Source of the DNA: Thermoplasmata archaeon
GTDB taxonomy: Archaea > Thermoplasmatota > Thermoplasmata > Lutacidiplasmatales > UBA184
DNA: 64,000 nucleotides
Assembly (NCBI GenBank): GCA_022750115.1
Contig: JAKIWI010000002.1
Location: 235,221-299,220, forward strand
Direction of reading: 5' to 3'
Positions 11,609 to 41,839 of this stretch are shown one piece after another. Under the pieces are notes generated by a model. The model made no database searches. It was not told the DNA's origin and was given only the letters and a program-made list of their open reading frames with translations. Position 1 is the stretch's first letter. Every line of letters starts with the position of its first letter. The position numbers and the translations under genes were made by a program.

Positions 11609-11697
11609 TTCCTACCGCGCGCCCGTCCCGGACCGGCGTCGCGCCGATGGGATTCTCTGTTCTCCCGGTACATAGGCCTTCTCGAACCGATTCGATG

Positions 11698-14205: not shown

Positions 14206-14214
14206 GGGTGGGCG

Positions 14215-15726: not shown

Positions 15727-15871
15727 CGCTTTCCCGACCCGCCTCCCTTCTTAAAGGCTGACCGAGGGAGGCGCTCGTCGCTCGACGGCCGACCACCCCG
15801 CGCGGCGCATTTGCGACGCCGTCCCATCGCCGCAACGACTTTACGGTGGTCCGGTTCGACGCTCCGTCCCG

Positions 15872-18951: not shown

Positions 18952-19095
18952 CCTTTATGGCGCCTCCCGTCTGGGCGGCGCCACCATGCCGGGCGGGGTC
19001 GGGAGGGCGGCGCATTCGCACGACGGCACGCCCCCAGCCAGCCCCAGGTACTGCCGGCGTCCTGGCGATCCCGTTGACCTGGGAGCACCCACGGG

Positions 19096-21648
19096 ATGAC
19101 GGCGGTTGCGTCCCCGCGAACGCCCGTGGCCGCCCCGCCCGCGCCGGCGCCGGCGGCAGCGCCCCCGGCGGCTGCGCCCCCGGCGGTGCCGGTTCGAGTC
19201 GCTGCACGCGCGCCCGCCCGCCGGCGCGGACGCCTCCACCGAATTGAGGGCGCGCTGTTTCCGGTTCGGGGGAGCGAGCATCAGAATCCTCAGGGAGTCC
19301 CCGAGCCCGGCAAGCCCGAGCTCCTCGCGTACCTGGTCTCCCTCGCGATCGGGGCGATCGGCGCGATCGCCATCCTGATCGCGATGGCCCCCTACGCCCT
19401 GCCGTCGGGCGGCGACCCGGGAGAATGGATCACCTCGTCCTATCCGTACGTGGGATTGCCGTACCCGACGTGGATCGTGCCGGGGCAGTATCCGCCCCTC
19501 TTGTTCCCCCTGCTGGGGAGCCTGGTTCGACTGCTCGGCCCGGTCCAGGCCGGTCGCGGCTTCGTCGTGCTGATGGCGATCCTCCTCGGACTCAGCTCGT
19601 ACTTCCTCGCCCGGTCGGTCGTCCGCTCGCGCTCGGTCGCCCTCGCCGCCGAGGGATTCGTCGTCCTGAGCCCCACGCTGATCCAGATGTTCTTCTGGGG
19701 CGGCTACCCGAACCTGCTCGGGTTGGTGTTCTTCAACCTGAGCTTGGGATTCTTCCTGCGGTTCGTCCGCTCCGCCCAGCCCACCCACGCCTTCCTGTTC
19801 TGGGTCGCGACCGCCGCGACCGTCCTCACGCACTCGCTCGTCGCCACGATCCTCGGCGGCACTCTCCTCGTCGTCTTCGTGTTCGTCGTCTGGCAGCGCT
19901 GGCTGCCCCGGACGTTCTACCGAAGTCGGGCCGCGCTCGCCGGCCTGGGGGTGTTCGTCGCCTCGGTCGGGGGGTTCTACCTGCTGACGCGCTTGGCCGG
20001 CGTTCCCCACCCGCAGTACCTGCAGACGAGCGCGTTCGCCTACGTGAAGAGCGGGATCGTCGGGATCTACTCCGTCATCGTCAACCCGTACGTCCCCGGA
20101 TTCCGCCCGAGCGTGGTGGAGGCGGAGATCGCCTCGTTCGTCATCGCCGGGCTCATCCTGTTCGTCCTCGTCGGTCTCCGACTGCTCGCGCCGGCGCGGC
20201 TCACACTCGGGCTCCTGCTCGTTCTCGCGATGTTCGGGACCGTCATCGGCGGGGCGATCGTCGGCTGGGAGCTGTCCGTCGTGACGGACTACCTACGGTT
20301 CGGCTACTTCCTCGTCGTGCCGCTCGGCCTCGGCCTCGCCCTGATCGTCGACGAACTCGTCCATGCGTCGCCGAGATGGTTCGCGAACTCCCGTCGGGAA
20401 CTCCGGCACACCAGCCGGGCCGCGGTCGGCGCGGCGCCGAGCGTGGAAAAGCTTCCTCCGCTCCATCCGCCGAGCGGGCCGGGACGATGGACCACCTTCG
20501 GCATCGCCGCGTTCGCCATTTTCATCGTCGCGCTGGTGCTGAGCGCGGGACTCGTGACGTACCCGAGCCTCGCGACGCAGGAGCAGCTCTACTCCGCCTC
20601 GTTCCACGACACGTCGTTCCTCTCGGCCCTGCACGACATCCGCGACTCGGGGGTTGCGGGGAACGTCTTTACGGTCGGGGGCGCCGCGAAGTGGACGCGC
20701 GCGATCCTCGACCGGAACGCCTACACGCCCTTCATCGCGACGCGCTATACCTTCGACCCGACGCACCTCGACTACGAGGAACTCGCCTACTTCGCGATGG
20801 TCGCGCACGACACCGTCACGAACAGCCTCGTGGCCGCGACGATCGCCGGGGCGAACGCGACGTTCGACAACGTCACGCCCGACTATCAGGCGTCGTACTT
20901 CGGCGTGTTCACGCCGGTCGCGACGATCCTTCCGCAGATTTTCAACGTCTCGGTCTCGAACCGAACGACGACGCTCATCGAGTCGGTCACGGGGAACCCG
21001 CACATCCTTCCTCCCACGGATGGTCGGCCGGATATGACCCTCGTCTACCCCGAGACGGGGTTCAACCTCTCCATCGGCATCTCGCTCGCCACGGGACTCC
21101 CGACGGCCCAGTACACCATCCAGGTCATCGCCGCCCCGGGATGGATCGTCCAATCGCTCCGCGGAAACGTGACCGGTCCCTCGGTCGGGATCGGGGCGAC
21201 GACGTTCCGGCTGGGGGCGACCGCGGGCGACGACCTTCTCAACCCGGCGGGTCTTTCGGGGGGGCTCCTCACCTACCTGAACGCGACGCCGGCGAACGTG
21301 TTCGACACGCACCCGCAGCTGTCCAACCACCAGGCGCTCGTCTCGCGCCAGGGGTTTCTCGTCTACGGAGGGCCGCGCGGCACGTCGGTGCTCAACCTGA
21401 CGTTGACGTTCACGACGCCCGGGGCGCAGAACCTGGTCAACAACCTCCCGCCGTTCGTCGACACACCCGACGTCTGGCAGAACTGGTCGATCCGGTTCGT
21501 GCTCCTGACGAACCAATCGCAGTTCCTCAGCAACCACCCGAGCGCGATCTTCTGGGATGTCCCCTATCTCGAAGGAGAGTTCGGCGCGAAGGTCCTCAGC
21601 GTCGAGGGGAGCTGGACCGTGCTCCTCCTCCCGGCGAGCGAGAGCTGA
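19096..21648 (+). CDS. Polytopic GT-C-like/PTPS_related-like membrane protein (paralog B)
   Basis: 850 aa; SGGDPGEW, FFWGGYPNLLGLVFFNLSLGF, VVTDYLRFGYFLVVPLG; C-terminus YLEGEFGAKVLSVEGSWTVLLLPASES closely matches paralog A (YLEGEFGARVLGTSGTWTVLLLPGAG). Confidence 0.75.
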   Translation: MTAVASPRTPVAAPPAPAPAAAPPAAAPPAVPVRVAARAPARRRGRLHRIEGALFPVRGSEHQNPQGVPEPGKPELLAYLVSLAIGAIGAIAILIAMAPYALPSGGDPGEWITSSYPYVGLPYPTWIVPGQYPPLLFPLLGSLVRLLGPVQAGRGFVVLMAILLGLSSYFLARSVVRSRSVALAAEGFVVLSPTLIQMFFWGGYPNLLGLVFFNLSLGFFLRFVRSAQPTHAFLFWVATAATVLTHSLVATILGGTLLVVFVFVVWQRWLPRTFYRSRAALAGLGVFVASVGGFYLLTRLAGVPHPQYLQTSAFAYVKSGIVGIYSVIVNPYVPGFRPSVVEAEIASFVIAGLILFVLVGLRLLAPARLTLGLLLVLAMFGTVIGGAIVGWELSVVTDYLRFGYFLVVPLGLGLALIVDELVHASPRWFANSRRELRHTSRAAVGAAPSVEKLPPLHPPSGPGRWTTFGIAAFAIFIVALVLSAGLVTYPSLATQEQLYSASFHDTSFLSALHDIRDSGVAGNVFTVGGAAKWTRAILDRNAYTPFIATRYTFDPTHLDYEELAYFAMVAHDTVTNSLVAATIAGANATFDNVTPDYQASYFGVFTPVATILPQIFNVSVSNRTTTLIESVTGNPHILPPTDGRPDMTLVYPETGFNLSIGISLATGLPTAQYTIQVIAAPGWIVQSLRGNVTGPSVGIGATTFRLGATAGDDLLNPAGLSGGLLTYLNATPANVFDTHPQLSNHQALVSRQGFLVYGGPRGTSVLNLTLTFTTPGAQNLVNNLPPFVDTPDVWQNWSIRFVLLTNQSQFLSNHPSAIFWDVPYLEGEFGAKVLSVEGSWTVLLLPASES

Positions 21649-21650
21649 CC

Positions 21651-21670
21651 TCGGCGGGTTCCCCCGCCGA
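21651..21670. terminator. Perfect 8-bp stem/4-nt loop hairpin between convergent genes
   Basis: tcggcggg-ttcc-cccgccga located between stops at 21648 (+) and 21679 (-). Confidence 0.4.
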
Positions 21671-21678
21671 CGAATTCG

Positions 21679-24045
21679 CTACGGTCCCTGGAGGACGATC
21701 CACTCCGTGTTGGAGTAGACGGTCACGAAGTGGAACGTCGTCGCGAGGAAATCGACCGTCTGGGTGTAGGCGACGGTCGCCGGTAGGAACAGGAACCGGA
21801 TCGAGAGCGCCTCCAGGAACCCGCTCGTGTCGAGAACGCTGGGCAGGACGACCGCCGGGTTCGACGCCGACGGGACCGTCAGGGCGATCGAGAACGAGAG
21901 CGGGGCGACGGGGTTCGGATTCGCGAACCCGTAGGCGAGGGTGCCGGATCCGTTCGTGACGTTCGTGCTCTCGCTCCGGGGCGCGGGCGAAGTGGCGCCG
22001 GTGAGGTCCACCGTCGCGTTGGACGGAAGCGCTCCCAGGTGGGTGGAGACGTCCCATCCGATCTTCCCCGCCGAGCTCGTAAGGCTCGTGACCGACCCGA
22101 TGTGAAGGGCGGCGACGCGGGTCGGCGGTGAGGCGAGCGTCAGGTTGAACCCGAGCACGCTCGCCCCGGCCGAGGGCGTGACGGTGTAGTTCACCCAGAG
22201 CGTCGGCGAGCCGATCGCGAGTGTCGTCGTCTGGACGGTGGTCGCACACGCGTTCGTCTCCCGGACCTGTCCGGCGCCGCTCGGTGTCGGCACCTCGAGC
22301 GTGGGCGGAGCTCCGGAGCTCGCGGGCGACCAGCCAGTGCATGTCCCGCCGGTGGCGTCCACCATCTCCGACGCCGGGAGGACCCGCAGCATCGGCACCG
22401 GCACGCCGAGCACGAGCGCGGAGACCATCGGCGCCTGGCTGACGGACGTCGTGGCGTACCCCGAGTAGGAGGCGACGAGCAGGTTGTTCGTGACTCCCGA
22501 GGCGCTGTTCATCGCGAAGTACGCCTCCTGGGCGTCCGCGATCTGCCAGTTCTCGTAGAGGAGCCACGTCGGACCAGGGTCGAAGGCGCCGCGGTCCGTG
22601 AGCGCTTCGATCCACCGGGCGGTCCCTTCGACGGTGAGTACGGAGCCCCCGGTCGGGTTCGTCGAGAGGTAGGAGGCAGCCGCGAGGAACGATGCGTCGT
22701 GGGTCGAGCCCGCGTCGCCGTGCTCGGCGAGCGCGACCGTCGGGATCGTCACGTTCACCAGGAGAGCGGCCAGGCCGAGCACGACGATGCCGACCGCGAG
22801 GAGGCGGAACGGAGCGGGCCGCAGCAAGCGGAACCGGGAAAGCGGGACCGCCGGGGTCGGGGTGGGATCGGCCGCGGCCGGCATCGCCACGAGCGCCCGG
22901 GGCAACAGCGCCTCGAGGCTCGTGATCGCGAGGAGCGAGAGGGGGAGGGGGAGGAAGTAGACGAAGCGCGTGTAATCGGTCGCGACGTGGGCGAAGTAGC
23001 CCCCGACGGGCGCGAGCAGTACGACGCCCGACCACGCTCCCGCGACCAGGGACGGAGTCCCCCACCGGTCGGGGCGGCGCGCCGCGGCCCAAGCGACGAA
23101 CAGGAGGACCCCGACGCCGGCGACGCCGAGGATCGCGGCCGCCGCGCGCGCCGAGAGGTCGAGCTCGGGGCCCATCGGGAAGAACGCGGGCGACTTCGTG
23201 AGCGGGACGAACACGGTGCCGAGCCCGGAGAGGGTGAACGCGGGCGGGTCGGCGTAGAGGTAGTTGATGCGCGGGATGCCGAGCGCGTTGAGCGCCTCGC
23301 TGTAGACCGCGTCCGTCACGATGACGATCGCGAGCCCGGCGAGCAGCCCCCGCGCGAGGACCGAGCGCCACGGCAGCCGCCGGAGCGCGATCGACCCGAC
23401 GAAGGCGAGGACGACCGTCGCGACCAGGAGGTCGAACGTCAGCGTGTGGGCGAGGTAGGTCAACGCGACGAACCCGCCGAGGGCGACGCCCCGCCACGTC
23501 CCCGGACGCCGAAGGTACAGCACGAGCGTCGCGATGGCGAGGTCGAACAGACAGAACGCGAGGAAGTTCGGATAGCCACCCCAGAACAGCATCGAAATGA
23601 CCGTGCCGTTCAACAGGCCGAGCCCGACGAGGGCGACCCGGAACTCGGTCCGCGCGATCGTTGCTCGGGCGAGGTACCAGAGGCTCAGGCCGTAGGCGCC
23701 GAGGACGAGGCCGCCGAACGCGAACCCCGTTTGGAGGGGCGAACCCGTCGCGAGCCGGAGCGCGCCGAGGATCGGGAACAGGAGCGGAGGATAGAGGAAC
23801 GGAGACCCGACGGCGTAGGCGGGCGGGTGGGCGAGGCCGACCCAGCCGTACGAGCGCTGAATCCAGTCGCCCGGGTCGACGCCCGGAGGGACCGGGAAGA
23901 ACGCGTAGTAGTACTCGAGGACGCCGACGGCGACGACGAGGAGGGTCAGGACCGCCGCGGTCTCGAGCGGGTCGGGCCAACGCGGGAGGTGCGGGGAGGG
24001 TTCGGACGGGGCGGTCCCCTCCACGAGGCGGGCGACCCCGCGCAC
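21679..24045 (-). CDS. Polytopic GT-C-like/PTPS_related-like membrane protein (paralog C)
   Basis: 788 aa; GVDPGDW, LFWGGYPNFLAFCLFDLAIA, VATDYTRFVYFLPLPLS; same architecture as paralogs A and B. Confidence 0.7.
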   Translation of the reverse strand: MRGVARLVEGTAPSEPSPHLPRWPDPLETAAVLTLLVVAVGVLEYYYAFFPVPPGVDPGDWIQRSYGWVGLAHPPAYAVGSPFLYPPLLFPILGALRLATGSPLQTGFAFGGLVLGAYGLSLWYLARATIARTEFRVALVGLGLLNGTVISMLFWGGYPNFLAFCLFDLAIATLVLYLRRPGTWRGVALGGFVALTYLAHTLTFDLLVATVVLAFVGSIALRRLPWRSVLARGLLAGLAIVIVTDAVYSEALNALGIPRINYLYADPPAFTLSGLGTVFVPLTKSPAFFPMGPELDLSARAAAAILGVAGVGVLLFVAWAAARRPDRWGTPSLVAGAWSGVVLLAPVGGYFAHVATDYTRFVYFLPLPLSLLAITSLEALLPRALVAMPAAADPTPTPAVPLSRFRLLRPAPFRLLAVGIVVLGLAALLVNVTIPTVALAEHGDAGSTHDASFLAAASYLSTNPTGGSVLTVEGTARWIEALTDRGAFDPGPTWLLYENWQIADAQEAYFAMNSASGVTNNLLVASYSGYATTSVSQAPMVSALVLGVPVPMLRVLPASEMVDATGGTCTGWSPASSGAPPTLEVPTPSGAGQVRETNACATTVQTTTLAIGSPTLWVNYTVTPSAGASVLGFNLTLASPPTRVAALHIGSVTSLTSSAGKIGWDVSTHLGALPSNATVDLTGATSPAPRSESTNVTNGSGTLAYGFANPNPVAPLSFSIALTVPSASNPAVVLPSVLDTSGFLEALSIRFLFLPATVAYTQTVDFLATTFHFVTVYSNTEWIVLQGP

Positions 24046-24073
24046 GTCACTTGAGGTTTGCTCGGCCGTCGCA

Positions 24074-24610
24074 CTACGCCGACCAGGTCCCGTGCGCGTC
24101 GAGATTCGCCCACTCGACTCCCGACGGGCTCCACACGACGAGGTCGAGCGCCTGACCGGCGTACGACGTGAGGTCGATCTGGAACGAGCCGCCGGTCGAG
24201 AGGCTGCAGCCCGTCCCCGTGACGTTCGTGCACCAGATCGGCGTGAGGTTCTGGGGCGACGGCACTCCGGTGAGTTGGTCGGCGCTGAGGACCTCGAGGT
24301 AGACGCCGGTGCATCCGCCGGGCGCCGACAATTGGCATGCCGAGATGCTGAGCGTGGCCGATACCGACGCGGAGCTCACGGTCCCGGCGCCGTCCTCGTC
24401 GGACTGGGAGTCGGGCGCGAGCTGGAACGGGAAGACGACCGCGCTCGCGATCCCCGGCTCCACTTGGAGGTCGGTGGCGTGGGCGACCGGAAGATTCGGC
24501 GGCGCGACCCCCGGGGCGGTGAGCATCGCGAGCCACGCCGTGGCCACGAGCGCGGCGGCGGCCGCGACGGCGAAGATCAGGATTCGTTGCCGGCGCGGCC
24601 GAATGGTCAT
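24074..24610 (-). CDS. Small secreted/anchored protein of unknown function
   Basis: ORF trimmed to MTIRPRRQRILIFAVAAAAALVATAWLAML (ATG at 24610, GGAG about 9 nt upstream); 28 nt gap to same-strand paralog C. Confidence 0.55.
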   Translation of the reverse strand: MTIRPRRQRILIFAVAAAAALVATAWLAMLTAPGVAPPNLPVAHATDLQVEPGIASAVVFPFQLAPDSQSDEDGAGTVSSASVSATLSISACQLSAPGGCTGVYLEVLSADQLTGVPSPQNLTPIWCTNVTGTGCSLSTGGSFQIDLTSYAGQALDLVVWSPSGVEWANLDAHGTWSA

Positions 24611-24685
24611 CGAAGTCTCCGTGCTGCGGCGATGCCTGCGTTCCGCGCGGGCGGGCGGCTCGCCGCCCCTCCAGGAGCCGCGACT

Positions 24686-24695
24686 CGATATATCG
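24686..24695. promoter_or_regulatory. Palindromic TATA-like element cgatatatcg in divergent intergenic region
   Basis: Perfect palindrome, strongly AT-rich against the background, between divergent genes at 24610 (-) and ~24784/24910 (+). Confidence 0.4.
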
Positions 24696-24783
24696 TCCCT
24701 CTCGCGCGCCCCGTGCCGTCGGAGTCGGCGCATCGCAGAGGCCGAGGCGATTCCGCGCTCACGTCAGCCTCATTACCGTCGGT

Positions 24784-26433
24784 GTGCCAGAGCCGACGGA
24801 GAGGCGTTCGGTTGGACGGTTCGGCAACCCAAACCCTCGGCCTTCCAGGTCCGGCCAGTCGAAGCGCCGCAGAATCCGGCTCGCGACTCCCGCCGCGAGG
24901 ACGCCGATCGTGAGCGCCCCTCGGGCACCCGATGTCCTCGTGGTGGTCCTCGACTGCGGACGCGCCGACGACTTCCCCGGTGGGTCGCACGCCGTCACGA
25001 ACATGCCGTTCGCCGACCGCCTGCGGCGGGAGAGCCTCTGGTTCCCCCGCGCCGTCACCCCGGCGCCGTGGACGGTCCCGTCGCACGCCAGCCTCTACAC
25101 CGGCCTCTACCCATGGGAGCACGGCGCCCACGCGAAGGGGACGCTGAAGCTCGCCGAGGGGATCCCGAGGCTCCCGGCGATCCTGCACCAGCGGGGCTAC
25201 CGGACGTTCTCGCTCTCGGCCAATCACCTGCTCTCCCCGAACCTCGGTTTTTCCGACGGATTCGACCGGCTCGCGTGGGCTGGCTGGTGGGAGCCGTACT
25301 ACCGCACCACCGGCACCGGCCGCCCACCGCACTCGGTGGGGGATGCCGGGGATTCCGGTGGGGTAGGGCTGGACCGGATCCAGCACGGGGCCGCGTGGCA
25401 AGCGGTGAAACTGACGTCCCGGATCGTCTACCGGTTCCCGTTCGTCACCGATGCCGCGGGCCGACTCACCCAGCAGCTCCGTTTCCCCACCCAACCCGAG
25501 CAGCCCGGCGTCGCCTCATGGGTCGAGCCGACGCTCGACCGCTGGCTGCGCGACACACCGGCCGATCAACCGACCTTCACCTTCGTCAACCTGCTCGAGA
25601 CCCACGAGCCCTACTACCCGACGGCCCGATGGGGCGAGGGTGCGCGGCGCTGGTTCCGAGCGGCCCGCACCCGGCAGGACCACATCGCCTGGCTCGCCGG
25701 CGCTTGGCGGCCGACGGCGGACGACTACCGGAGGCTCCACGAACTGTGCCGCGACATGCTCTCCCAGGCCGATCGCCGGCTCGCATCGATCGCCGAGGTG
25801 CTGAAGCGCCACGACCGCTGGGACGACACCACCGTGGTGGTCACCAGCGACCACGGCCAAGCGTTCGGAGAGCACGACCTCCTGTTCCACATGCTCCGTC
25901 TCGAGGAGCCGCTCGTTCGGATCCCCTTGTGGGTTCGACGGCCTCGCCGCCCGGAGCTGACCGGACCCGCCACGGGCTGGGCCAGCCTGGTCGACGTCGC
26001 TCCGACCCTCCTCGAGGATTCGGGAGGGACCGGCGGGTTCGTCTCGTCGGGCCTGCCGCTCGGCCATCTGCGGGACCATGAGCGGGACGTCCCGGTGCTG
26101 ACCGCCGCCGACGGGCTCGTCTGGAAGACGATCATCCCCGAGCACGAGCGCGGGCGCGTCTCGGAGCAGCGGAAGCGGGCGTTCGACCGGGTCCTCGTGG
26201 CGGCGTACAGCGGCGACACGAAGGTCGTCTACGACGCGGCCGACGACCGGGTGCGCGCGTTCGACATCGAATCCGACCCGGGCGAGCTCCGGGACCTGTG
26301 GCCGGAGCGGTCGACCGCGCTCTCGGCCCTCGCGGCGGAGGCGAAGTCGGTGGCCGGGCGGATGCTGCACGGCCCCGAGGCGCCGATCCCGGATGACGTC
26401 GAGGAGCGCCTGCGGTCGTGGGGTTACATCTAG
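24784..26433 (+). CDS. Sulfatase-fold protein (alkaline phosphatase superfamily), Thr nucleophile variant; start may be GTG at 24910
   Basis: PDVLVVVLDCGRADDFPGG, PWTVPSHASLYTGLYPWEHG, VVTSDHGQAFGEHD, VEERLRSWGYI; start at 24910 would give about 507 aa, matching the 503-aa paralog. Confidence 0.85.
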   Translation: MPEPTERRSVGRFGNPNPRPSRSGQSKRRRIRLATPAARTPIVSAPRAPDVLVVVLDCGRADDFPGGSHAVTNMPFADRLRRESLWFPRAVTPAPWTVPSHASLYTGLYPWEHGAHAKGTLKLAEGIPRLPAILHQRGYRTFSLSANHLLSPNLGFSDGFDRLAWAGWWEPYYRTTGTGRPPHSVGDAGDSGGVGLDRIQHGAAWQAVKLTSRIVYRFPFVTDAAGRLTQQLRFPTQPEQPGVASWVEPTLDRWLRDTPADQPTFTFVNLLETHEPYYPTARWGEGARRWFRAARTRQDHIAWLAGAWRPTADDYRRLHELCRDMLSQADRRLASIAEVLKRHDRWDDTTVVVTSDHGQAFGEHDLLFHMLRLEEPLVRIPLWVRRPRRPELTGPATGWASLVDVAPTLLEDSGGTGGFVSSGLPLGHLRDHERDVPVLTAADGLVWKTIIPEHERGRVSEQRKRAFDRVLVAAYSGDTKVVYDAADDRVRAFDIESDPGELRDLWPERSTALSALAAEAKSVAGRMLHGPEAPIPDDVEERLRSWGYI

Positions 26434-31556: not shown

Positions 31557-34085
31557 ATGCGGACGAGGTGGGGTCTCGGTCTCCTCGCAATCCTCGCCGT
31601 TGCGGCGCTTTTGATCGTGCCGGCCGCGAGCGCGTCCTACCGCATCTCGGCGGCCAGCCCGTCGCTCCCGTCCGCTCCGACCTCGGTCGCGACGGGAGCG
31701 CAACTCCTCGCGGGCGCCCAGGCGTCCCTCCAAGCCCGAGCCCTGAACGCGAGCGCTCCGTCGGGATGGACGAACGTTACACCGGCGGGCGGTCCGGGTG
31801 CACGGACTCATGCGGATCTCGTCTACGATGCGGCGATGGGGGCTGTGCTGCTGTTCGGTGGCCGGTCGTCGGTATTCCTCAACGACACGTGGACCTACTC
31901 GGCCGGCCACTGGACTCCGTTGCACGGTCCTCGCGCTCCGGGCCCGCGCCAGGCCGCGGCGATGGCCTACGACGACGCGACGGGGACCGTCCTCCTGTTC
32001 GGCGGGTTCAACGGCGGCTACCTGGCGGACACCTGGTCGTTCGCGCAGGGCAACTGGACGCGCTTGCATCCGGCGACGAGCCCGGCGGCGCGCGCCGACG
32101 CGGGGATCGCCTTCGACCCGAAGACCGGGTCGGTGATCCTGTTCGGCGGCGCCTCTCCTTCGCTGCGGAACGATACGTGGCAGTTCTTCGGCGGCACATG
32201 GTCCTCGATCGCCAGCGCCCATGCCCCCTCGCCGCGGTCCGACCTGACGCTCGTCGAGGATCCCGAGGCGGGCGGCGTCGTCCTGTTCGGCGGCGAGGCA
32301 ACGCGCTCCCAGAACGACACGTGGCTGTTGCAGGCGGGCTCCTGGGCGAACCTCTCGGGCGCCGTCGCGCCGTCGCCGCGCTCCGGCTCGGTGGCGAGCT
32401 ACGACTCCGTCGACGGGTACGTCGTGCTGTTCGGCGGTGCGACCGGACCTTCGGCGAACCAGACCTGGCAGTTCCGCGCCCACGTTTGGACCGAGTTGTT
32501 CCCCCCGCAAGCTCCTCCGACCCGATCCTTCGCCGGCGCCGCATTCGACCCCGTCGCGGGCGCGGCGTTGCTGTTCGGCGGCGGCACGGGGGCGAACACG
32601 TTCTCGGACCTCTGGGCCTACCGCGCCGCGCCGGCGACCTTCTCCTGGCTCAACGTGACGACGGCGAACGCGCCCGCCGCGCGCACCCAGGCCGCGTTTG
32701 CCTACGACCCCGCCGACGGCTACGTGCTCCTCTTCGGCGGCGAGAACCACCAGGCGAACAACGCGTCCGTCCCGTTCTTCCACGACACCTGGAGCTATCG
32801 CGGCGGGGTCTGGGCGAAGCTCCTCGTCGGAACCTCCCCCTCGGCCCGCCGCGGCGCGATGATGGAGTATGACCCGCACCTCGGCGCGATGGTCCTGTTC
32901 GGTGGCTCGAACACCACGAGCTACCTGAACGACACGTGGAAGTTCCGCGGGGGGACGTGGACGCACCTCGTCACCTCCATCGCCCCCCCTCCGCGCCGGA
33001 GCGGTTCCTTCGCCTGGGATCCCTCGACCGCCTCGATGGTGCTGTACGGGGGCCACAACGGCACGGGCGGCGGCCGCAATGGATGGTACGGCATCTACAA
33101 CGACACCTGGGAGTACCGCTCGACCGGTTGGACTCGGGTGAGCGGCTCCCCGTCCCCCGAGCCGCGCGCCGAAGCGCTGCTCGCCTACGACCCGACCGAG
33201 GCGCAGTTGGTACTGTTCGGAGGATACGAGCAGAACCACTCGCACCCGTGGGAGGAGGAGCTGAACAGCACGTGGACGTTCCATGACGGCCGCTGGACGA
33301 ACCTGACCGCCCTCCTCGGGGGCCGGGCTCCTCTGCACCGGGACGGAGCTGGGTTCGTGTACGACCCGGCGGCGGGCGCCCTCTATCTGTTCGGGGGCGA
33401 CGACAACACGCCGAACCCGATCAACACGACGTGGACGTTCGCGTTCGACCGATGGACCGAGGTCTGCAACTGCCACGCGACGCTCTGGACGGCGGACCAT
33501 GCGACCTACGACGCGGCCGACGGCTACATCGTGACGCCGGCGGGCCACGCGGCGCTCCTCTCCACCGTGATCTTCGCTCCCCTGGCGTTCGTGAGCGCAT
33601 CGGCGACGCCGAACCCGGTCGACGCCAACCACACCACGTTCCTGACGGCGTGGTCGGGAGGGGGTTCGGGTCCGCTGTCGATCGCCTGGGATCTCGGCGG
33701 CGGCCGTCTCGCTTCGGGGACCGGCGTGTCCGCGGTGTTCTCCCTGCCGGGCTCCGTCCGAGTGACGGTCTGGGCGAACGGCTCGGGCGTCGGCGTCGTC
33801 GCCGCGAATCTCACCATCACGGTCGATCCAGCTCTCGGCGCGGCGCTCCGGGTCACTCCGAAACACGTCTCCCTCGGTTCGCCCATCACAGCGAATGCCT
33901 CGTACTCGGGTGGGACCGGCCCGTATTCTTGGTCGTTCTCGGGGCTTCCGGCGGGATGCCCGCCGCCCTCGACCCTCGTCTTTTCGTGCACCCCGAGCGC
34001 GACCGGGAATTTCACGATCGATTTCCGGGTCGTCGATGCGACCGGCGCCAATGCGAGCGCGTCCGCGACCGTAACGGTCAGCTAG
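31557..34085 (+). CDS. Secreted kelch-repeat surface protein (kelch-1), lacks the C-terminal TM anchor
   Basis: 842 aa; signal LLAILAVAALLIVPAASA; repeated VLLFGGxxxxxLNDTWxxxxGxW units; ends at ASATVTVS immediately after an Ig-like domain. Confidence 0.85.
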   Translation: MRTRWGLGLLAILAVAALLIVPAASASYRISAASPSLPSAPTSVATGAQLLAGAQASLQARALNASAPSGWTNVTPAGGPGARTHADLVYDAAMGAVLLFGGRSSVFLNDTWTYSAGHWTPLHGPRAPGPRQAAAMAYDDATGTVLLFGGFNGGYLADTWSFAQGNWTRLHPATSPAARADAGIAFDPKTGSVILFGGASPSLRNDTWQFFGGTWSSIASAHAPSPRSDLTLVEDPEAGGVVLFGGEATRSQNDTWLLQAGSWANLSGAVAPSPRSGSVASYDSVDGYVVLFGGATGPSANQTWQFRAHVWTELFPPQAPPTRSFAGAAFDPVAGAALLFGGGTGANTFSDLWAYRAAPATFSWLNVTTANAPAARTQAAFAYDPADGYVLLFGGENHQANNASVPFFHDTWSYRGGVWAKLLVGTSPSARRGAMMEYDPHLGAMVLFGGSNTTSYLNDTWKFRGGTWTHLVTSIAPPPRRSGSFAWDPSTASMVLYGGHNGTGGGRNGWYGIYNDTWEYRSTGWTRVSGSPSPEPRAEALLAYDPTEAQLVLFGGYEQNHSHPWEEELNSTWTFHDGRWTNLTALLGGRAPLHRDGAGFVYDPAAGALYLFGGDDNTPNPINTTWTFAFDRWTEVCNCHATLWTADHATYDAADGYIVTPAGHAALLSTVIFAPLAFVSASATPNPVDANHTTFLTAWSGGGSGPLSIAWDLGGGRLASGTGVSAVFSLPGSVRVTVWANGSGVGVVAANLTITVDPALGAALRVTPKHVSLGSPITANASYSGGTGPYSWSFSGLPAGCPPPSTLVFSCTPSATGNFTIDFRVVDATGANASASATVTVS

Positions 34086-36492
34086 TTCCCGGAGAGCGAC
34101 GTCACCGACGGGCCGCGCGCGCCCGGGCGCGGACCTTCGCCGAGCGACGGGCGGTCGAGAGGCTCGACGGTCGGTGGACCGGCGGGGGATCCGGCGTGCC
34201 GCGCCACACGGCCACGCTTCCCACCGCACCGAGTAGGCCGAGCCCGCTGCCCGCGATCAGGTCCGGCAGCGACACGCGATGTTGGGTCGAGCCAAGCCCG
34301 GACGCCGGACTGAGCGAGTCCGACGTGCCCACGACCTTGGTTCCGCCCTTCGGGGCGAATCCGCCGGGATGGGAGGTGCCGGGAGTCCCGCCGATCGGCG
34401 GGGTGGAGTTCGCCGTCGTGTTGTTTCCGTCGCCGGACCCCGTATCGTTCCCCGAGTCGTTCGTGCCGGTCTGATTCGTCCCGTTCGTCGCGGAGGCGTT
34501 CTCCGTGACGAGGGCGACCCCGTATCCGCCGAGGTGGACGACGTTGCTCGGACCGGGGACGGTCGCCAACGACGAGCGGTCCAGTTCCACGACGTGGGTG
34601 ACCGGGTCCGCCGTCTCGACATAGGAGCGGTTGTCCAGGATCTCGACGGAGCGGACCGTCATGTTGCGCCCCGCCACGCTCACCGGGATCGTCACCGGCA
34701 ACGCCGCGCGGTTGACCAGAAGGACATGGACCGTCGAGGCGTTCCCGGTCGCAAGGGAGCCGACGACGCCGGTGGCGTCCGTGTCGACCGCGAGCGGCGT
34801 GGCACCGGCCGGCGTTGCGCTCGCCCAAAGCGAGAGAGCCCAGTACGGCGCGTAGCGGGTGTCGTTGTCGCTCGTCCCCTCGCTCGTCAGCCCGAACCCC
34901 CAGCCGCCGATCGGCTGGGTCACGGTGGCGTTCTGCTGGAGCGCGGACGTGAGCGTGAAGTAGACGAAATCGGAGACGTTCTGCGCCGAGGCGTTGAGAA
35001 GCGTCGAGACCAGCCAGGCCGCGCCGAGGAGCGTCTGCTGGCGGGGGTCCGACCCGGTCGCGGCGTTGCCCGGGCTCCCGCCGACCCCGTTCAGGTTCGA
35101 CTCCGTCACCAGGACGGGAACGTGGTTCCCTGTCGCGTTGAACCAGTCGGACGCCGCGACCGACGGAGGCAGGAAGTTCAGGTCGGAGATGCTCGCCGTC
35201 GCGTGGAACAGGCTTGCGTCGGCCGTACCGGTTCCCGGCTCGGTGCCCGGGGCGCAGTAGCTGTTGTTGACGACGCAGATGCCGGCCGCGGGATAGTAAT
35301 GGAACGAGAGGTAGCCGACCCCCTGGGTCTGGGCCGCGAACTCCGCGGCGTAGGTCCGGTTCGTCATCACGTCGGAGCCGACGAGGGCGGTCGGGTCGTA
35401 GGCGTGGATCGTGTGGGCGGCGAGGTTGAACAGGGCGATGTAACGCCCGACGATCGTCGCGTTCACGAGGGGCATCTCGTTGCCGAAGTTCCAGTACCGG
35501 ACCGGTTCGTGGCTCGATGTCGTGTGGTTCAGGACCGCGTCGAGGTAGGAGACGAGGGCCGCGTTCGTCGGGAAGTAGCCGGTCGAGCCGGCGAACGGTA
35601 CCATGAGGCTTTGGTCGAGCGGCATCCCGCCCGGCAGGATGTTGCCATCGCCCCACGAGCCGGCAGGGAGCGACACGAGGAGGTGCGCGCCGAGGCTGCC
35701 CGCGAGCCCGGCGGCGGCGTCGAACCCGGTGAAGTTGAACCTCGGAACGCCCGTCGCGGAGTTCCAGCTCGCCTGGGTCCCGATCGACGCGATGCCGACT
35801 CGAACGACGTCGAGACCCAGGGGGGCGGCGAGGGAGCGGTAGTCCGGATCCGTTACGACCGCGAGCCCACCGGCGAGCCCCGGCCCCTGGAGAAAGACGC
35901 CGGCTTCCGTCGGCCGGGCCGGTGCGGGAGCATTGGCGTGGACCGTGACGGGGAGAATCGGCTCGCTGGTCCCGACGACCTGGTAGAGGTCGGGCATGAC
36001 GGTCGTTTGCCGGGTGAGCGTGCCGTACTGGAGGTTCTCGGTCCAGTTCGCGGTGTCGTTCCCGCCGTTCCGCCAGACCGACCACTGCCAGAGCGAGAGG
36101 GTCGGGAGGTTGTCCGAACCGCCCGGGATCTGGTCGGGGAACGCCCAGTTCGGAACCGGGTTCGTCACGAGCCGCACGTTCACGCCGGGGAACACGCTAT
36201 TGGCGTCCAGGACGATCCAGTAGCTCCGGCCGTGCGCCGATGCCTCACCCGAGCTCGTGGAGTCCGAGATGTTCGCGAACTGCCCTGCGCCGAGCGAAAA
36301 ACTCCCCGACGTCCCGTCCGTCAGAAGGAGGTCGTCGATCACGCCCCCACGCGCCGCCGTCGTGACGGACGCCGGGTGAGCCGGAGCGCTCGACGGCGCC
36401 CCTGGGTGCTCGGAGAACGCCACCCCGCTCGCCAGCACCACGAGGAGAACCCCAACGGCGATGAGCCATCGGGGGAACAACATCGGTGTCAC
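34082..36492 (-). CDS. Secreted clan GH-A-like glycoside hydrolase (GH-1) with C-terminal TM segment
   Basis: 796 aa; signal LIAVGVLLVVLASGVAF; YWNFGNEMP (putative acid/base Glu), VLVTESNLN (putative nucleophile Glu); C-terminal LPDLIAGSGLGLLGAVGSVAVW. Confidence 0.65.
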
Positions 36493-36715
36493 GAATCCAA
36501 AGACCGACCTCGGGTGCGCCCGGGGTGAGCCTCAGCGTTCCGTATTACGTATCAATGTGTATAAGGACCTACGTGCCCGGAGCCGACACGTCGCCCCTCG
36601 GCGCGCCGGGGGTCCGGCCGTTGGCGCGTCTCACGGACGGCGCGAGGGACCGACGGGAGCTCGCCGGGAATCATCCCCGGGGGTGTAATAAGCTGGGGCG
36701 GACCGGCGGCGGCCG

Positions 36716-39559
36716 ATGGCGGGAGCGACTAGAGTCTCCGGGCGCCGTTGGCGGCGTGGTCGCGCGGCCGGTCTCGGGGCGGCGCTCCTCAGCTTCGGAA
36801 TCCTGAGCGTCCTGCTCCTCGTCGGCGCGCCGGCGTCCGCTGCCCCGGCGGTCGTGCCGGGGTCTCCCCTTCGGGATTCACCTGCCGTCGGGCTCTCGTC
36901 CGCCGATCACCCGAACACCGCGAAGAGCTCGGCCATCGGCTCCGGACCTCCGACGAACGGATGGACCCTACTCTCCGGAACGGCGGGTCCGTCCGCCCGC
37001 AGCGGCGCGGCGGTCGCGTTCGACCCGCTCCTCGGCGAGGATGTCCTGTTCGGAGGTCGGAGTGGAGTCCCGCTCGGTGACACATGGGCCCTTCGCGGCA
37101 CGAACTGGACCCGGCTGACCGAGACTACCGCCCCCAGCCCCCGGAATGGTGCGGCAATGGCCTGGGACCCCGTCGGCGGATACCTGCTCCTGTTCGGAGG
37201 GTTCAGCGCCATGGGGTATCAGTCCGACAGCTGGGAGTTCGTCTCCGGTCATTGGGCGCTGCTCGCGCCCTCGATGGAACCCTCCCCGCGGGCGGACGCG
37301 GCCCTCGCCCTGGATCCGACGGGCGGTCGTTTGGTTCTGTTCGGCGGGACAAACGGCGGGCCGCTCGGGGACACGTGGGCGTTCTCCGCCGGAAACTGGA
37401 CGCCAGTGAACACCACTTCCAGCCCGTCACCCCGCTCCGACGCCGTCTTCACCGACGACCCGGAGGCGGGCGCCGCCGTGCTGTTCTCGGGGCGGGATTC
37501 GGGTCCACTCAACGACACCTGGGAGTTTCACGACGGCGGGTGGACCGAAGTGACTCCGACAAGCTCGCCGGGAAGCCGCGCTGGCGCAGCGGGGGCGTTC
37601 GACATCACGGACGGCTACCTCGTCGTGTACGGAGGAAACGGCAGCGGACGGCTCGCGGACACCTGGTCGTTCCGGAATTCTACTTGGAGCGCGCTCGCAC
37701 CGCCGTTCCACCCCCCCGCGTTTTCCGACGCAGCCGTCACGTTCGACCCAACCTCCGGTTCGCTCATCGCGTTCGGCGGATACTCGAATTCGACGGTCCT
37801 CGGAGCTACGTGGGGCTTCCGTGCGGCTCCGAATGGTAGCTCGAAGTACAACTGGAGCGAGGTCCACTCCACGCGCGAACCCACCGACCGGACCCAGGCG
37901 GGATTCGCCTTCGACGCCGCTGACGGCGCCGTCGTGATGTTCGGGGGCCAAAACCAGTCCGGGACGAGCAATGCCACCGACTACTACAACGACACCTGGA
38001 CGTACCGCGCGGGCGTCTGGACGCAGCACAACCTGACGCCGTCGCCAAGTCCGCGACGCGGGACCATGCTGACCTACGACCCTGCAGTCGGGGCGCTGGT
38101 CCTGTTCGGCGGATCGAACGGGTCGAGCTACTTCAACGATACTTGGACCTACCGCCACGGTGTTTGGACGCCAATCCCGACGGCGGTCGCCCCCACGCCC
38201 CGGCGCAGTGCCGGATTCGCCTTCGACCCGCAGCTGGGCGGGATCTTGTTGTTCGGCGGCCACAACGCCTCCGGCGGAGCCCGCGGGTTCTACACGGTGT
38301 TCAACGACACCTGGCTTTGGACCGCTGCCGGGTGGAGCCAGATCTCCGGCGGTTCGTCGCCCGAACCCCGGGCGGAGCCTCTCATGACCTTCGACCCGAC
38401 GGACGGTTTCCTGTTGCTCTATGGGGGCTACCATCAGAACGGCACGGCGTTCGATGAGCAGGAGCTCGACAGCACGTGGGTGTTCGAGAACCGTACCTGG
38501 ACGAACATCACGGCCCGGGTGGGAATCCCGCCGTCCCCGCGCGATGGCTCCGGATTCGTGTTCGACCCGGCGACCGGCTACATCCTTGCCTTCGCCGGCG
38601 ACGACAACCGACTCACCGCGGTCCCGAGCATCTGGGAGTTTCAACTGGGCCACTGGAAGTTGAATTGCAACAACTGCGCCGCCCCGACCTGGGCGGCCGA
38701 TCACGCGGTCTACGACGAGGCGGACGGCTACTTGATCACCCAAGGCTCGCAGAAGGGCGTTCCGCCGGTGGGAGAAGGTCCGCGCCTCCAGTCCCTCGCT
38801 CCGGACGCAGGTCCGCCGGGAAAGCCCCAACGAACCTGGGCGTGGAACGCCACCCCATTTCTGAGCGTCACGGCGTCCCCCATCGCTACGGATCTGGGAC
38901 GACCGGTCGCCCTCACAGGATGGCTGGGGGCCGGCACTCCTCCTTGGAGCCTCACGTGGGCTGTTCACGGTCGCCCGAGCGTTTCCGGCCCGGTCGACGT
39001 GGCCACATTCTCCTCGGTGGGGACGATCAAGATCTTCGCGAACGCTAGCGCTCCCGGCAGCAACCAGACTCGGTCGACCCTGACGGTCGTCGTAAACTCT
39101 ACTCCGAGGGCCTCCCTGCTCCTGACTCCGTCGTTCACCCCTGAGGGGTCGCCGGTGACCATCACGATCGGCGGGCGTCTCGGGACCAGTCCGTTGGCCC
39201 TACTGTTGGCCGGACTTCCCCCTGGGTGTCCTGCGAGCGGGAGCCAGAGTCTCGTGTGCTCCCCGAGCAGCCCCGGCGTCTACAACGTGACGCTCAACGT
39301 GACCGACCAACTCGGCGCGGTCGGCTGGTCGAACGCAACGCTCGTCGTGAACGCGACGGTGGTTACCGGGCCGGGGCGATTTGCCTCGCTCGAGACCTAC
39401 GTGGCCTTGTTCGGCCCGGCCGCCATCGCCGTCCCGACCGCCATCTACCTGGTGCTCCGGTTCCGGCATGCTCCGCCGAAGCGCGGAGCTCCGGCCGCCG
39501 TGCCACCGCCGACCCCGCCGGCGACCTCTCCCCCGAGCCCGCCGTCGGGCTCCGACTGA
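36716..39559 (+). CDS. Secreted kelch-repeat surface protein (kelch-2) with C-terminal TM anchor
   Basis: 947 aa, collinear paralog of kelch-1 (SSPEPRAEPLMTFDPTDGFLLLYGGY; CNNCAAPTWAADHAVYDEADGYLIT); C-terminal YVALFGPAAIAVPTAIYLVLRFRH. Confidence 0.85.
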   Translation: MAGATRVSGRRWRRGRAAGLGAALLSFGILSVLLLVGAPASAAPAVVPGSPLRDSPAVGLSSADHPNTAKSSAIGSGPPTNGWTLLSGTAGPSARSGAAVAFDPLLGEDVLFGGRSGVPLGDTWALRGTNWTRLTETTAPSPRNGAAMAWDPVGGYLLLFGGFSAMGYQSDSWEFVSGHWALLAPSMEPSPRADAALALDPTGGRLVLFGGTNGGPLGDTWAFSAGNWTPVNTTSSPSPRSDAVFTDDPEAGAAVLFSGRDSGPLNDTWEFHDGGWTEVTPTSSPGSRAGAAGAFDITDGYLVVYGGNGSGRLADTWSFRNSTWSALAPPFHPPAFSDAAVTFDPTSGSLIAFGGYSNSTVLGATWGFRAAPNGSSKYNWSEVHSTREPTDRTQAGFAFDAADGAVVMFGGQNQSGTSNATDYYNDTWTYRAGVWTQHNLTPSPSPRRGTMLTYDPAVGALVLFGGSNGSSYFNDTWTYRHGVWTPIPTAVAPTPRRSAGFAFDPQLGGILLFGGHNASGGARGFYTVFNDTWLWTAAGWSQISGGSSPEPRAEPLMTFDPTDGFLLLYGGYHQNGTAFDEQELDSTWVFENRTWTNITARVGIPPSPRDGSGFVFDPATGYILAFAGDDNRLTAVPSIWEFQLGHWKLNCNNCAAPTWAADHAVYDEADGYLITQGSQKGVPPVGEGPRLQSLAPDAGPPGKPQRTWAWNATPFLSVTASPIATDLGRPVALTGWLGAGTPPWSLTWAVHGRPSVSGPVDVATFSSVGTIKIFANASAPGSNQTRSTLTVVVNSTPRASLLLTPSFTPEGSPVTITIGGRLGTSPLALLLAGLPPGCPASGSQSLVCSPSSPGVYNVTLNVTDQLGAVGWSNATLVVNATVVTGPGRFASLETYVALFGPAAIAVPTAIYLVLRFRHAPPKRGAPAAVPPPTPPATSPPSPPSGSD

Positions 39560-39581
39560 GTGGTTTTCCGTCGCTAGACGC

Positions 39582-39601
39582 CGGGAATTCTGCGATTCCC
39601 G
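39582..39601. other. Inverted repeat (7-bp stem, 6-nt loop) between kelch-2 and GH-2
   Basis: cgggaat-tctgcg-attcccg, 22 nt after the kelch-2 stop and immediately upstream of the GH-2 TATA-like box. Confidence 0.4.
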
Positions 39602-39607
39602 ACACGA

Positions 39608-39617
39608 CGTATATCAA
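39608..39617 (+). promoter_or_regulatory. TATA-like box (cgtatatcaa) upstream of GH-2
   Basis: AT-rich element centred about 28 nt upstream of ATG 39641. Confidence 0.5.
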
Positions 39618-39640
39618 CCGGAAGTCATCAGGAATCGGGG

Positions 39641-41839
39641 ATGCGAGCTAAAGCATCACTCGGCAGGCGAACGCCAGGCTATCCGCTCTCACTCCGCCCG
39701 CTCGTCGGCGCGGCCGTTTTCGTCGGGGCCGTCCTGATCCTAACGGCGCTGCTCCCGAACTCGGTGGGCGCCAACGAACGGGCCGAAGCGGGGGTCGGCT
39801 CGTCGCTCTTGCCGCCGCTCGTGCTCACCGACAATTCGCTCCTCTCCACGGTCTTCGGATTGGGGACGGTCAAGATCTCCGACGGGGTCCACCTGCTCCC
39901 CCCCTCGTCTGGCGTCCGGTCCTACGATCTCGTGATCGGGGTCGTGGCGCCGATCTCCTCCCTTTCGGCGACGGTGGAGACGAACCCCCTCCTCCAGTGG
40001 TCGAACCCGATGCAGAAGCCGGGCGGGGCGGACAATCTCCCGCCGTTCCAATTGTGGACCTGGTCCGTCACGACGGGCGGCGTGAACGACACGGCCAACT
40101 GGACCGTGATGGCCTACTCGCACTTCCTCAAGCGGACGGTCGGCTGGGCCGACCAGACGTTCGTGATCCGCGGGACGACGCAGCCGGTCGAGCCCGTCAC
40201 CGTTCCGGCGACGCTGCCCACCGGCGACTCGACCCCCCAGGTTGGGCTGTTCCTCCAGTACCCGGGGGCCCCGAACTCCTCGATCCCGACCACGAACCCA
40301 GCGTACCGCTCGTTGATCACGAGCCTCGACCCCGGGATGATCCGACTTTCGCTGTCCGGCATCCAAACCTACGCGTACTGGAGCAAGGTCACCCTCTCGC
40401 CGGTGTTCAACTTCACGGCGTTCGATGCCAGTGTAAACTTCTCCAACGCGGTCGGCGCGACCGTTGTCCTCTCCCTCCCCGTCGGGACCTGGGGGGACGG
40501 CAACTTCCTCCCGTACGGGATGCCGGTCAACACCAGCATGCCGTTGACGTTCCTGGGGAACACCGGGTACTTCCCCACCGCCGCCTCGTACCAGCGGTTC
40601 GTGGACGTCCTCGTCGCGCACGTCGTGGCGTACCACGAGACGATCCCCTACTGGTCGATCGGGAACGAGCAGCCGCTTCCGAACGCGACGATCGCCGGGA
40701 TGTTCGTCAAGATGTTCAACGTCGCCGAGAAGGAGATCCACGCGCAACTTCCGCGGGCGCGGGTCGGTTCCGACGTGCTGACCAACCGCACGTTCCTCCC
40801 GCAGTTCTCGACGACGATGCACAACGTCGGGTTCCTCTCCTACCACTTCTACCCCGCCGTGGGCTACTGCGTCGCGAACGGCACGTTCTGCCCGCCCGCG
40901 GGCGGTTTCAACGGCACGGTCGACCCCAACCTGTTCCGCCCGATCGCGGAACTGTACGGCGACTCCGTGTTCTACGCGCCCCACCTCGCCCAGGAACTCT
41001 GGTACAACGCGACGCACAACTGGCTCCCGGTCTTCGATGCGGAGTCGAACCTCAACGCTGTCGGGGGAGCCCACACGTCGTGGGTCGGCACCGACGCGCG
41101 CGACCAGTCGCTGTTCGGCGCCGCGTGGCTGGTCGCTGCGCTGCTCCAGAGCGCGTCGGAGAACGTCTCGTCGCTCACCTACTTCACCGCGACCGACCCG
41201 TCGAACTCGTTCCCGACGACGATCACGTCCCCCTACGGGGGTTGGGGCTTCGGACTCGCGCGACCGGGCCCGGTGACGGGCTACCTCCACTATGCGCCGT
41301 ACTGGGCCCTGAAGCTGTGGGCCAACAACGTGCCGGCCGGCTCCCGCGGGGCCGTCCTCCCGACGAACGACCGGACCGTCCTCCAGGCCTACGCCGACCA
41401 GTCGGCCAGCGGGCTCAACGTCATCCTCGTGAACCTTGCGGCGGTCCCGGTCCAGGTACCGGTCACGCTCAGCGCATCGGGCTACGTCTCGCACGCGACG
41501 CACATCCTCGACTCGCGCTCCTACGTGCAGACGTTCAACGCGTCCTCCCAACGCGAGCACTTGTGGCGCTCCGGCGTCACGCAGAACATCTCGAAGGTCC
41601 CGTCCCTGACCGTGACCATCGATGGGTACGGTGTCGCGGTCGTTCAGTTCGTGAAGTCCACGGGGAAGGGACCGATGATCGCGTCGAACAATTCGAGCGC
41701 CAGTGCGTTGTGCGTCGCGGCGAGCGGGCTGCCGACGAACGTGGCCGCCGACCAGGTCGACAACGACGCGCTCGGGGTCTGGGCGACGCCGCCGTTCGGG
41801 GTCGCCTCGCTCATCGCCGCCCGCTCGGTTCCCGCGTAG
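39641..41839 (+). CDS. Secreted clan GH-A-like glycoside hydrolase (GH-2), no C-terminal TM segment seen
   Basis: 732 aa; N-terminal hydrophobic segment VGAAVFVGAVLILTALL; YWSIGNEQP, VFDAESNLNAVGG; collinear with GH-1 (GGWGFGL, LVNLAAVPVQVPVTL, ILDSRSYVQT). Confidence 0.65.
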   Translation: MRAKASLGRRTPGYPLSLRPLVGAAVFVGAVLILTALLPNSVGANERAEAGVGSSLLPPLVLTDNSLLSTVFGLGTVKISDGVHLLPPSSGVRSYDLVIGVVAPISSLSATVETNPLLQWSNPMQKPGGADNLPPFQLWTWSVTTGGVNDTANWTVMAYSHFLKRTVGWADQTFVIRGTTQPVEPVTVPATLPTGDSTPQVGLFLQYPGAPNSSIPTTNPAYRSLITSLDPGMIRLSLSGIQTYAYWSKVTLSPVFNFTAFDASVNFSNAVGATVVLSLPVGTWGDGNFLPYGMPVNTSMPLTFLGNTGYFPTAASYQRFVDVLVAHVVAYHETIPYWSIGNEQPLPNATIAGMFVKMFNVAEKEIHAQLPRARVGSDVLTNRTFLPQFSTTMHNVGFLSYHFYPAVGYCVANGTFCPPAGGFNGTVDPNLFRPIAELYGDSVFYAPHLAQELWYNATHNWLPVFDAESNLNAVGGAHTSWVGTDARDQSLFGAAWLVAALLQSASENVSSLTYFTATDPSNSFPTTITSPYGGWGFGLARPGPVTGYLHYAPYWALKLWANNVPAGSRGAVLPTNDRTVLQAYADQSASGLNVILVNLAAVPVQVPVTLSASGYVSHATHILDSRSYVQTFNASSQREHLWRSGVTQNISKVPSLTVTIDGYGVAVVQFVKSTGKGPMIASNNSSASALCVAASGLPTNVAADQVDNDALGVWATPPFGVASLIAARSVPA

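Follow-up and report, generated by a model that had tools for sequence, protein, structure and literature searches.

Among the described systems closest to the locus reported here, PslG is a GH39 endo-beta-glucanase whose gene belongs to the Psl biosynthesis cluster; a hydrolase and a lyase are likewise found in the Pel and alginate clusters (PMC11912335). In polysaccharide utilisation loci of the SusC/D type, a surface binding protein adjoins an exported hydrolase. We compared these systems, together with GH39 beta-xylosidases and the kelch/PKD surface proteins of the same archaeal family, with a locus of two kelch genes (K1 and K2) and two putative hydrolase genes (G1 and G2) lying within a 64,000-nucleotide stretch of DNA (the window) from a Thermoplasmata archaeon. 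The source genome comprises 2.1 Mb in 27 contigs at ~69% GC. Thermoplasmata archaeon AcS5-116, the one named relative recovered, has been placed in the Lutacidiplasmatales from acidic forest soils (~69% GC, 2.1 Mb; PMC9287336), an order to which the source genome probably also belongs. In a literature search outside which many journals fell, we found no description of the enzyme family or of kelch-hydrolase pairing in these archaea.

The original prediction was of a kelch gene and a glycosidase gene present as a pair twice in tandem, with one of the glycosidase genes inverted. As a description of gene content this was confirmed (Table 1). All four genes are long open frames that form two sets of collinear paralogues, K1 and K2 sharing 41% identity over 814 aa (E 0.0) and G1 and G2 sharing 41% over 636 aa (E 3e-151), with DNA similarity of ~65% at the level of the genes. 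G1 is indeed inverted relative to G2, and the C-terminal blocks that had been quoted for K1 and K2 were found in both proteins. The end of G1 had been placed at 34082, but a stop codon lies inside 34082-36492 and position 34082 ends another frame. With G1 ending at 34102, the two convergent genes K1 and G1 do not overlap, and 16 bp lie between them. K2 and G2 are co-directional, with a gap of 81 bp, and the region between the divergent G1 and K2 genes could contain promoters for both. A scan for bacterial sigma-70 promoters found none, as expected for a bacterial consensus in an archaeal host.

Table 1. Positions in the window (or, where stated, in related sequences) of the four genes, predicted catalytic codons and surrounding features.
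Feature	Position	Strand	Remarks
K1	31557..34085	+	secreted kelch protein, 842 aa
G1	34102..36492	-	GH39-like (clan GH-A-like) hydrolase, predicted exported, 796 aa
K2	36716..39559	+	secreted kelch protein, 947 aa
G2	39641..41839	+	GH39-like hydrolase, predicted exported, 732 aa, paralogue of G1
Intergenic region G1/K2	36493..36715	.	223 bp, between divergent genes
G1 E339 codon	35476..35478	-	predicted acid/base (YWNFGNEMPL); invariant in 18 homologues, aligned with GH39 NE
G1 E464 codon	35101..35103	-	predicted nucleophile (VLVTESNLN); invariant in 18 homologues, aligned with GH39 TEW strand
G2 E343 codon	40667..40669	+	predicted acid/base, equivalent of G1 E339
G2 E468 codon	41042..41044	+	predicted nucleophile, equivalent of G1 E464
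K1 Cys motif	33465..33527	+	CNCHATLWTADHATYDAADGY; K2 counterpart CNNCAAPTWAADHAVYDEADGY
Surface-glycan-type cluster	7502..26433	.	collinear with the GH-pair clusters of G010 and G106
Three long membrane proteins	11698-14205, 19096-21648, 21679-24045		788-850 aa; two match PF10131 (PTPS_related)
177-181-aa membrane protein	window 24074-24610; L027 11402-11947; L061 5578-6111		no Pfam family; 44-46% identity
Sulfatase-superfamily lineage	window 5947-7377, 14215-15726, 24940-26433; L027, L030, L059, L061, L065, L067, L069		

The family of G1 and G2 was visible in profiles rather than in single sequences. Single-sequence searches of Pfam, NCBIfam and the PDB with G1 and G2 gave no useful match; the GH39 model PF01229 matched none of 18 family members at E values up to 5 and nothing in the source genome (G000), and the only Pfam matches of the 18 members were weak ones to GH42 in two of them (best E 0.014). 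When a profile of the 18 homologues was run against the PDB, GH39 beta-xylosidases ranked first, weakly (4m29, E 0.14) and with the NE motif aligned. For the clan GH-A comparison by profile we used a small archaeal GH42 set and a GH39 set drawn from annotated plasmids and archaeal PF01229 loci. Profile-profile alignment with GH39 gave a probability of 95.3 before fragments were removed and 97.1 (P 5.1e-11, 434 columns) against the 19 full-length sequences; the bacterial-plasmid and archaeal subsets gave 95.9 and 86.3, respectively. A reversed alignment scored 0.1, 20 column-shuffles scored 0.6 or less, and profiles of sulfatases, GT2, kelch, GT-C-like membrane proteins and GH42 all scored below 1. 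GH42, considered as an alternative GH-A family, was thus not matched, in a comparison made with a small archaeal alignment.

In the GH39 alignment, YWNFGNEMPL of G1 corresponds to the NE motif, SFHYYP to H-x-Y, and VLVTESN to the TEW nucleophile strand. N338-E339, H398, Y400, C406, C413 and E464 (G1 numbering) are invariant in 18/18 homologues, so that a putative acid/base Glu preceded by Asn and a putative nucleophile Glu occur in the clan GH-A pattern, at positions that would belong to strands 4 and 7. The earlier assignment of these proteins to a clan GH-A-like group therefore agrees with the profile result. We conclude from these alignments that G1 and G2 represent a previously unassigned family of putative glycosidases that is distantly related to GH39, and a retaining catalytic mechanism would be expected. 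The (beta/alpha)8 barrel is predicted by homology to GH39, as the AlphaFold model of G1 (built from four sequences; pLDDT 39, pTM 0.36) was unusable and was discarded. Barrel and C-terminal domain of the beta-xylosidases (PDB 4m29/4ekj) align over these ~430 columns at ~16% identity, with the catalytic NE and E matching. Unlike those enzymes, the G1/G2 family has an N-terminal beta domain of ~130 aa, an export signal, a linker and a membrane anchor, together with a GxWGDGN block of its own. G1 consists of an N-terminal signal, this beta domain, the predicted barrel with its C-terminal domain, and a Gly/Asn/Ser/Thr-rich linker followed by a hydrophobic segment and an Arg-rich tail; G2 lacks the linker and the anchor.

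Kelch propellers had been proposed for K1 and K2, and the results agreed with this identity. PF24681, PF13415 and PF13418 matched both proteins far above the Pfam cut-offs, and both also have PKD/Ig-like domains; AlphaFold modelled four-stranded blades over residues 70-640 of K1 (pLDDT ~70-88); and Foldseek searches with this model returned kelch propellers, the best being the LZTR1 kelch domain (TM 0.76 by target length). K1 has an N-terminal hydrophobic signal, ~12 kelch blades (aa 70-640) and therefore two propellers, a C-x-C module and two PKD/Ig-like domains, and is predicted to lack a C-terminal membrane anchor. The overall pTM of the model was only 0.43, and the arrangement of one propeller relative to the other is not fixed by it. 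K2 has the same layout plus a C-terminal membrane segment (~aa 896-917) and a Pro-rich tail. Export signals were predicted for the kelch and hydrolase proteins, as were hydrophobic membrane segments at the C-termini of K2 and G1. Kelch repeats, PKD domains, signal and C-terminal anchor are common to this type and to other kelch/PKD surface proteins of the archaeal family, from which it differs in its ~12 blades and C-terminal Cys motif. In its exact form (CNxC...W.ADHA.YD.ADGY) the motif occurred in K1 and K2 only, among the kelch proteins compared, and a C-x(2)-C pair is kept at this site in their four nearest relatives. Otherwise, K1 and K2 are ordinary two-propeller secreted kelch/PKD proteins of a very large family, which in the source genome accounts for more than 150 K1-similar stretches and 53 PF24681 matches.

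The genes surrounding the enzyme in related genomes pointed to the assembly of a surface glycan. The hydrolase gene lies within a polysaccharide assembly locus in G010, G106, G102, G090, G030, G115, G075 and G077, and glycosyltransferases, PGM/PMM, a Wzx-type flippase or a sugar nucleotidyltransferase are encoded near it in G030, G012, G115, G077 and G102. A sulfatase-superfamily gene was found within 10 kb of 9/17 enzyme loci where 0.52 were expected (P 4e-10, a value overstated by the orthology of some loci, G010 with G106 and G102 with G090; ~6 arrangements are independent). The enzyme loci of G086 and G102:C46 had no adjacent glycan-assembly gene. In G010 and G106 the hydrolase pair is inside a cluster with the gene order of window positions 7502-24610 (identities in G106 of 46-69%), and the gene for the 177-181-aa membrane protein lies between the two enzymes. 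The window has this gene (178 aa) within its own cluster, which further encodes a PKD protein, three long membrane proteins, sulfatase-fold enzymes and a kelch protein; here the enzymes do not adjoin it and are found 5-15 kb further on. Long membrane proteins, several of them matching PF10131, are among the neighbours of most enzyme loci. We take PF10131 to be of GT-C type, and the three long membrane proteins of the window are possibly GT-C glycosyltransferases. Their C-termini are alike, with WTVLLLP in two and EWIVLQGP in the third.

In the sulfatase-superfamily lineage the C-terminus is conserved and closes with R(L/M)(R/K)SWGY[ICDL]; the active-site motif, where read, was W-T-[VIL]-P-S-H-x-S-L. 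Literal sulfate chemistry was rejected for these proteins, and phosphodiesterase or phosphotransferase chemistry appears likelier, because Thr stands where sulfatases have the formylglycine Cys. Near an isolated enzyme gene of G102, L060 7205-8062 encodes a protein with an Ice-binding-like domain (PF11999, E 7.5e-64). Downstream of the quartet in the window, a plus-strand gene at 42634-44763 encodes an exported 709-aa protein of no Pfam family, and a small minus-strand regulator-like gene lies between the two.

The reading that we prefer, at a probability of about one half, is that G1 and G2 are GH39-like hydrolases acting on the cell's own surface glycan, with the kelch proteins binding or organising the same layer. 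We favour processing of the cell's own glycan because the enzyme loci of relatives have genes for surface-glycan assembly around them. The substrate would be beta-linked sugars in the surface polysaccharide or in a protein-linked glycan. G1 would be tethered to the membrane and G2 released or sorted differently, and together they may cut or trim the glycan during its export, assembly or turnover, while K1 and K2, as two-propeller surface proteins, would bind or organise that glycan layer. PslG provides a parallel in that the enzyme genes of both systems belong to, or lie close to, a locus for surface-polysaccharide assembly, the enzymes being likened through the GH39 family only (PMC11912335); G1 and G2 differ in being archaeal, in occurring as two paralogues per locus, and in having kelch and sulfatase-fold neighbours. 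Against this reading, the window quartet is separated from the glycan cluster by 5-15 kb, and unrelated genes (for a lyase, OsmC and an HtrA-like protease) intervene. Moreover, coat synthesis in general cannot depend on the enzymes, because only 13/103 genomes of the taxonomic family carry them. A wider proposal, in which a new clan GH-A family of acid-soil Thermoplasmatota (Lutacidiplasmatales-like) supplies tethered and free enzymes that, with two-propeller kelch lectins, remodel an undescribed surface glycan whose assembly genes lie around them, is put forward tentatively.

To our knowledge, almost nothing is known of the surface glycans of uncultivated Thermoplasmatota, and an enzyme family that marks glycan-assembly loci would offer a handle for locating them. 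G1 and G2 are also candidates for a new family of enzymes that work in acid, and they offer a case in which the incorporation of hydrolases into an archaeal coat-assembly system can be tested. For us the interest lies less in the duplication itself than in an unassigned GH-A-like family that is restricted to one lineage and linked to archaeal surface-glycan loci.

The original prediction had instead been of a surface unit for glycan capture and cleavage. Understood as foraging, in which kelch propellers would capture soil polysaccharide and the hydrolases would cut it for uptake, this is doubtful. Enzymes and propellers are predicted to be exported and partly membrane-tethered, they adjoin more often than by chance, and members of the order have been portrayed as organoheterotrophs that are likely to use carbohydrates (PMC9287336). 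However, the genomic setting of the enzyme in relatives is one of glycan assembly and not of sugar uptake. Unlike SusC/D-type loci, the relatives of the kelch-hydrolase locus carry synthesis genes. A Pfam scan of window proteins brought up no SusC/D-type genes, and the proteins scanned, which represent part of the window's genes, included no sugar importer or regulator beside a hydrolase. For storage glucans, the accessible part of the paper on the order names GH57, GH15 and GH133, not the family of G1 and G2 (PMC9287336). The kelch family is also large and generic, and most kelch neighbours of the enzyme are not orthologues of K1 or K2.

Where kelch proteins are so numerous, a nearby kelch gene is weak evidence as such. 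Linkage of the two families in other genomes had been set beforehand as a test, and a kelch gene was found within 2.5 kb of 5/8 enzyme loci, compared with 0.40 expected from kelch density (P 1e-5, likewise overstated by the orthologous loci). At least four arrangements with kelch are independent (window; G010/G106; G030; G102/G090). The remaining 3/8 testable loci had no kelch gene at this distance, and strong K1/K2-type kelch proteins were present in 4/13 enzyme-bearing genomes, neither of which fits an obligate unit; the linkage is real but loose. All four genomes with such kelch proteins carry the enzyme (full-length relatives in three genomes other than the source, at 479-588 bits), a co-occurrence that is suggestive, the genomes concerned being related. 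It is unlikely, in view of linkage above chance in these several arrangements, that the genes are fortuitous neighbours in a variable region of surface-protein genes, with no functional partnership. Such an origin would nevertheless suit the abundance of kelch genes, the architecture of the kelch neighbours, which changes from genome to genome, and the G086 hydrolase pair, which is kelch-free and adjoined by a PQQ propeller. It would also suit a conserved housekeeping block of five genes (82 aa, HtrA-like protease, OsmC, 132 aa, lyase), which abuts the window quartet and also borders the G086 pair. Finally, that G1 and G2 are non-catalytic or non-hydrolytic GH-A-like surface proteins, or transglycosylases or phosphorylases, is highly improbable, since neither the predicted catalytic Glu residues nor the Asn before the acid/base varies among the 18 homologues, even if the similarity to GH39 is very remote and distinctive conserved features (GxWGDGNxLPxGMP and the two invariant Cys) lie near the predicted active site.

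Within the class, the enzyme family was confined to the taxonomic family of the source organism: no other taxonomic family had it among 400 genomes drawn from the class, and no relatives were found in viral contigs or plasmids. Adjacent enzyme pairs occur at five loci (window, G010, G086, G102 and G106), and each of the five combines one enzyme predicted to be anchored with one predicted to be unanchored. The anchored member has a linker rich in Gly, Asn, Ser and Thr, a hydrophobic segment at the C-terminus and a basic tail, all of which its partner lacks. In a tree of 22 homologues, G1 joined further anchored enzymes and G2 clustered with another pair, at moderate support (SH-aLRT 85-89). Sisterhood of G1 and G2 was absent from the best tree, yet was not rejected (AU p 0.21), and K1 and K2 were mutual best hits, yet only 3-4 points nearer to each other than to their best relatives. 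Recent tandem duplication of a cassette was therefore set aside as unsupported: the tandem pairs stand as a description of the locus rather than as an established history. The enzyme pairs may instead go back to paralogue lineages of some age, a recent duplication in place being the less likely origin.

The unanchored enzymes close with a short stretch made up of hydrophobic residues, Ala-Ala, Pro and, in many cases, Arg, such as GVASLIAARSVPA and GILVAATAPSRRA. This ending is found at the C-terminus of G2 (~41797-41836) and also in L027, L028, L036, L057, L058, L060 and L061, and it is possible that it functions as a sorting signal.
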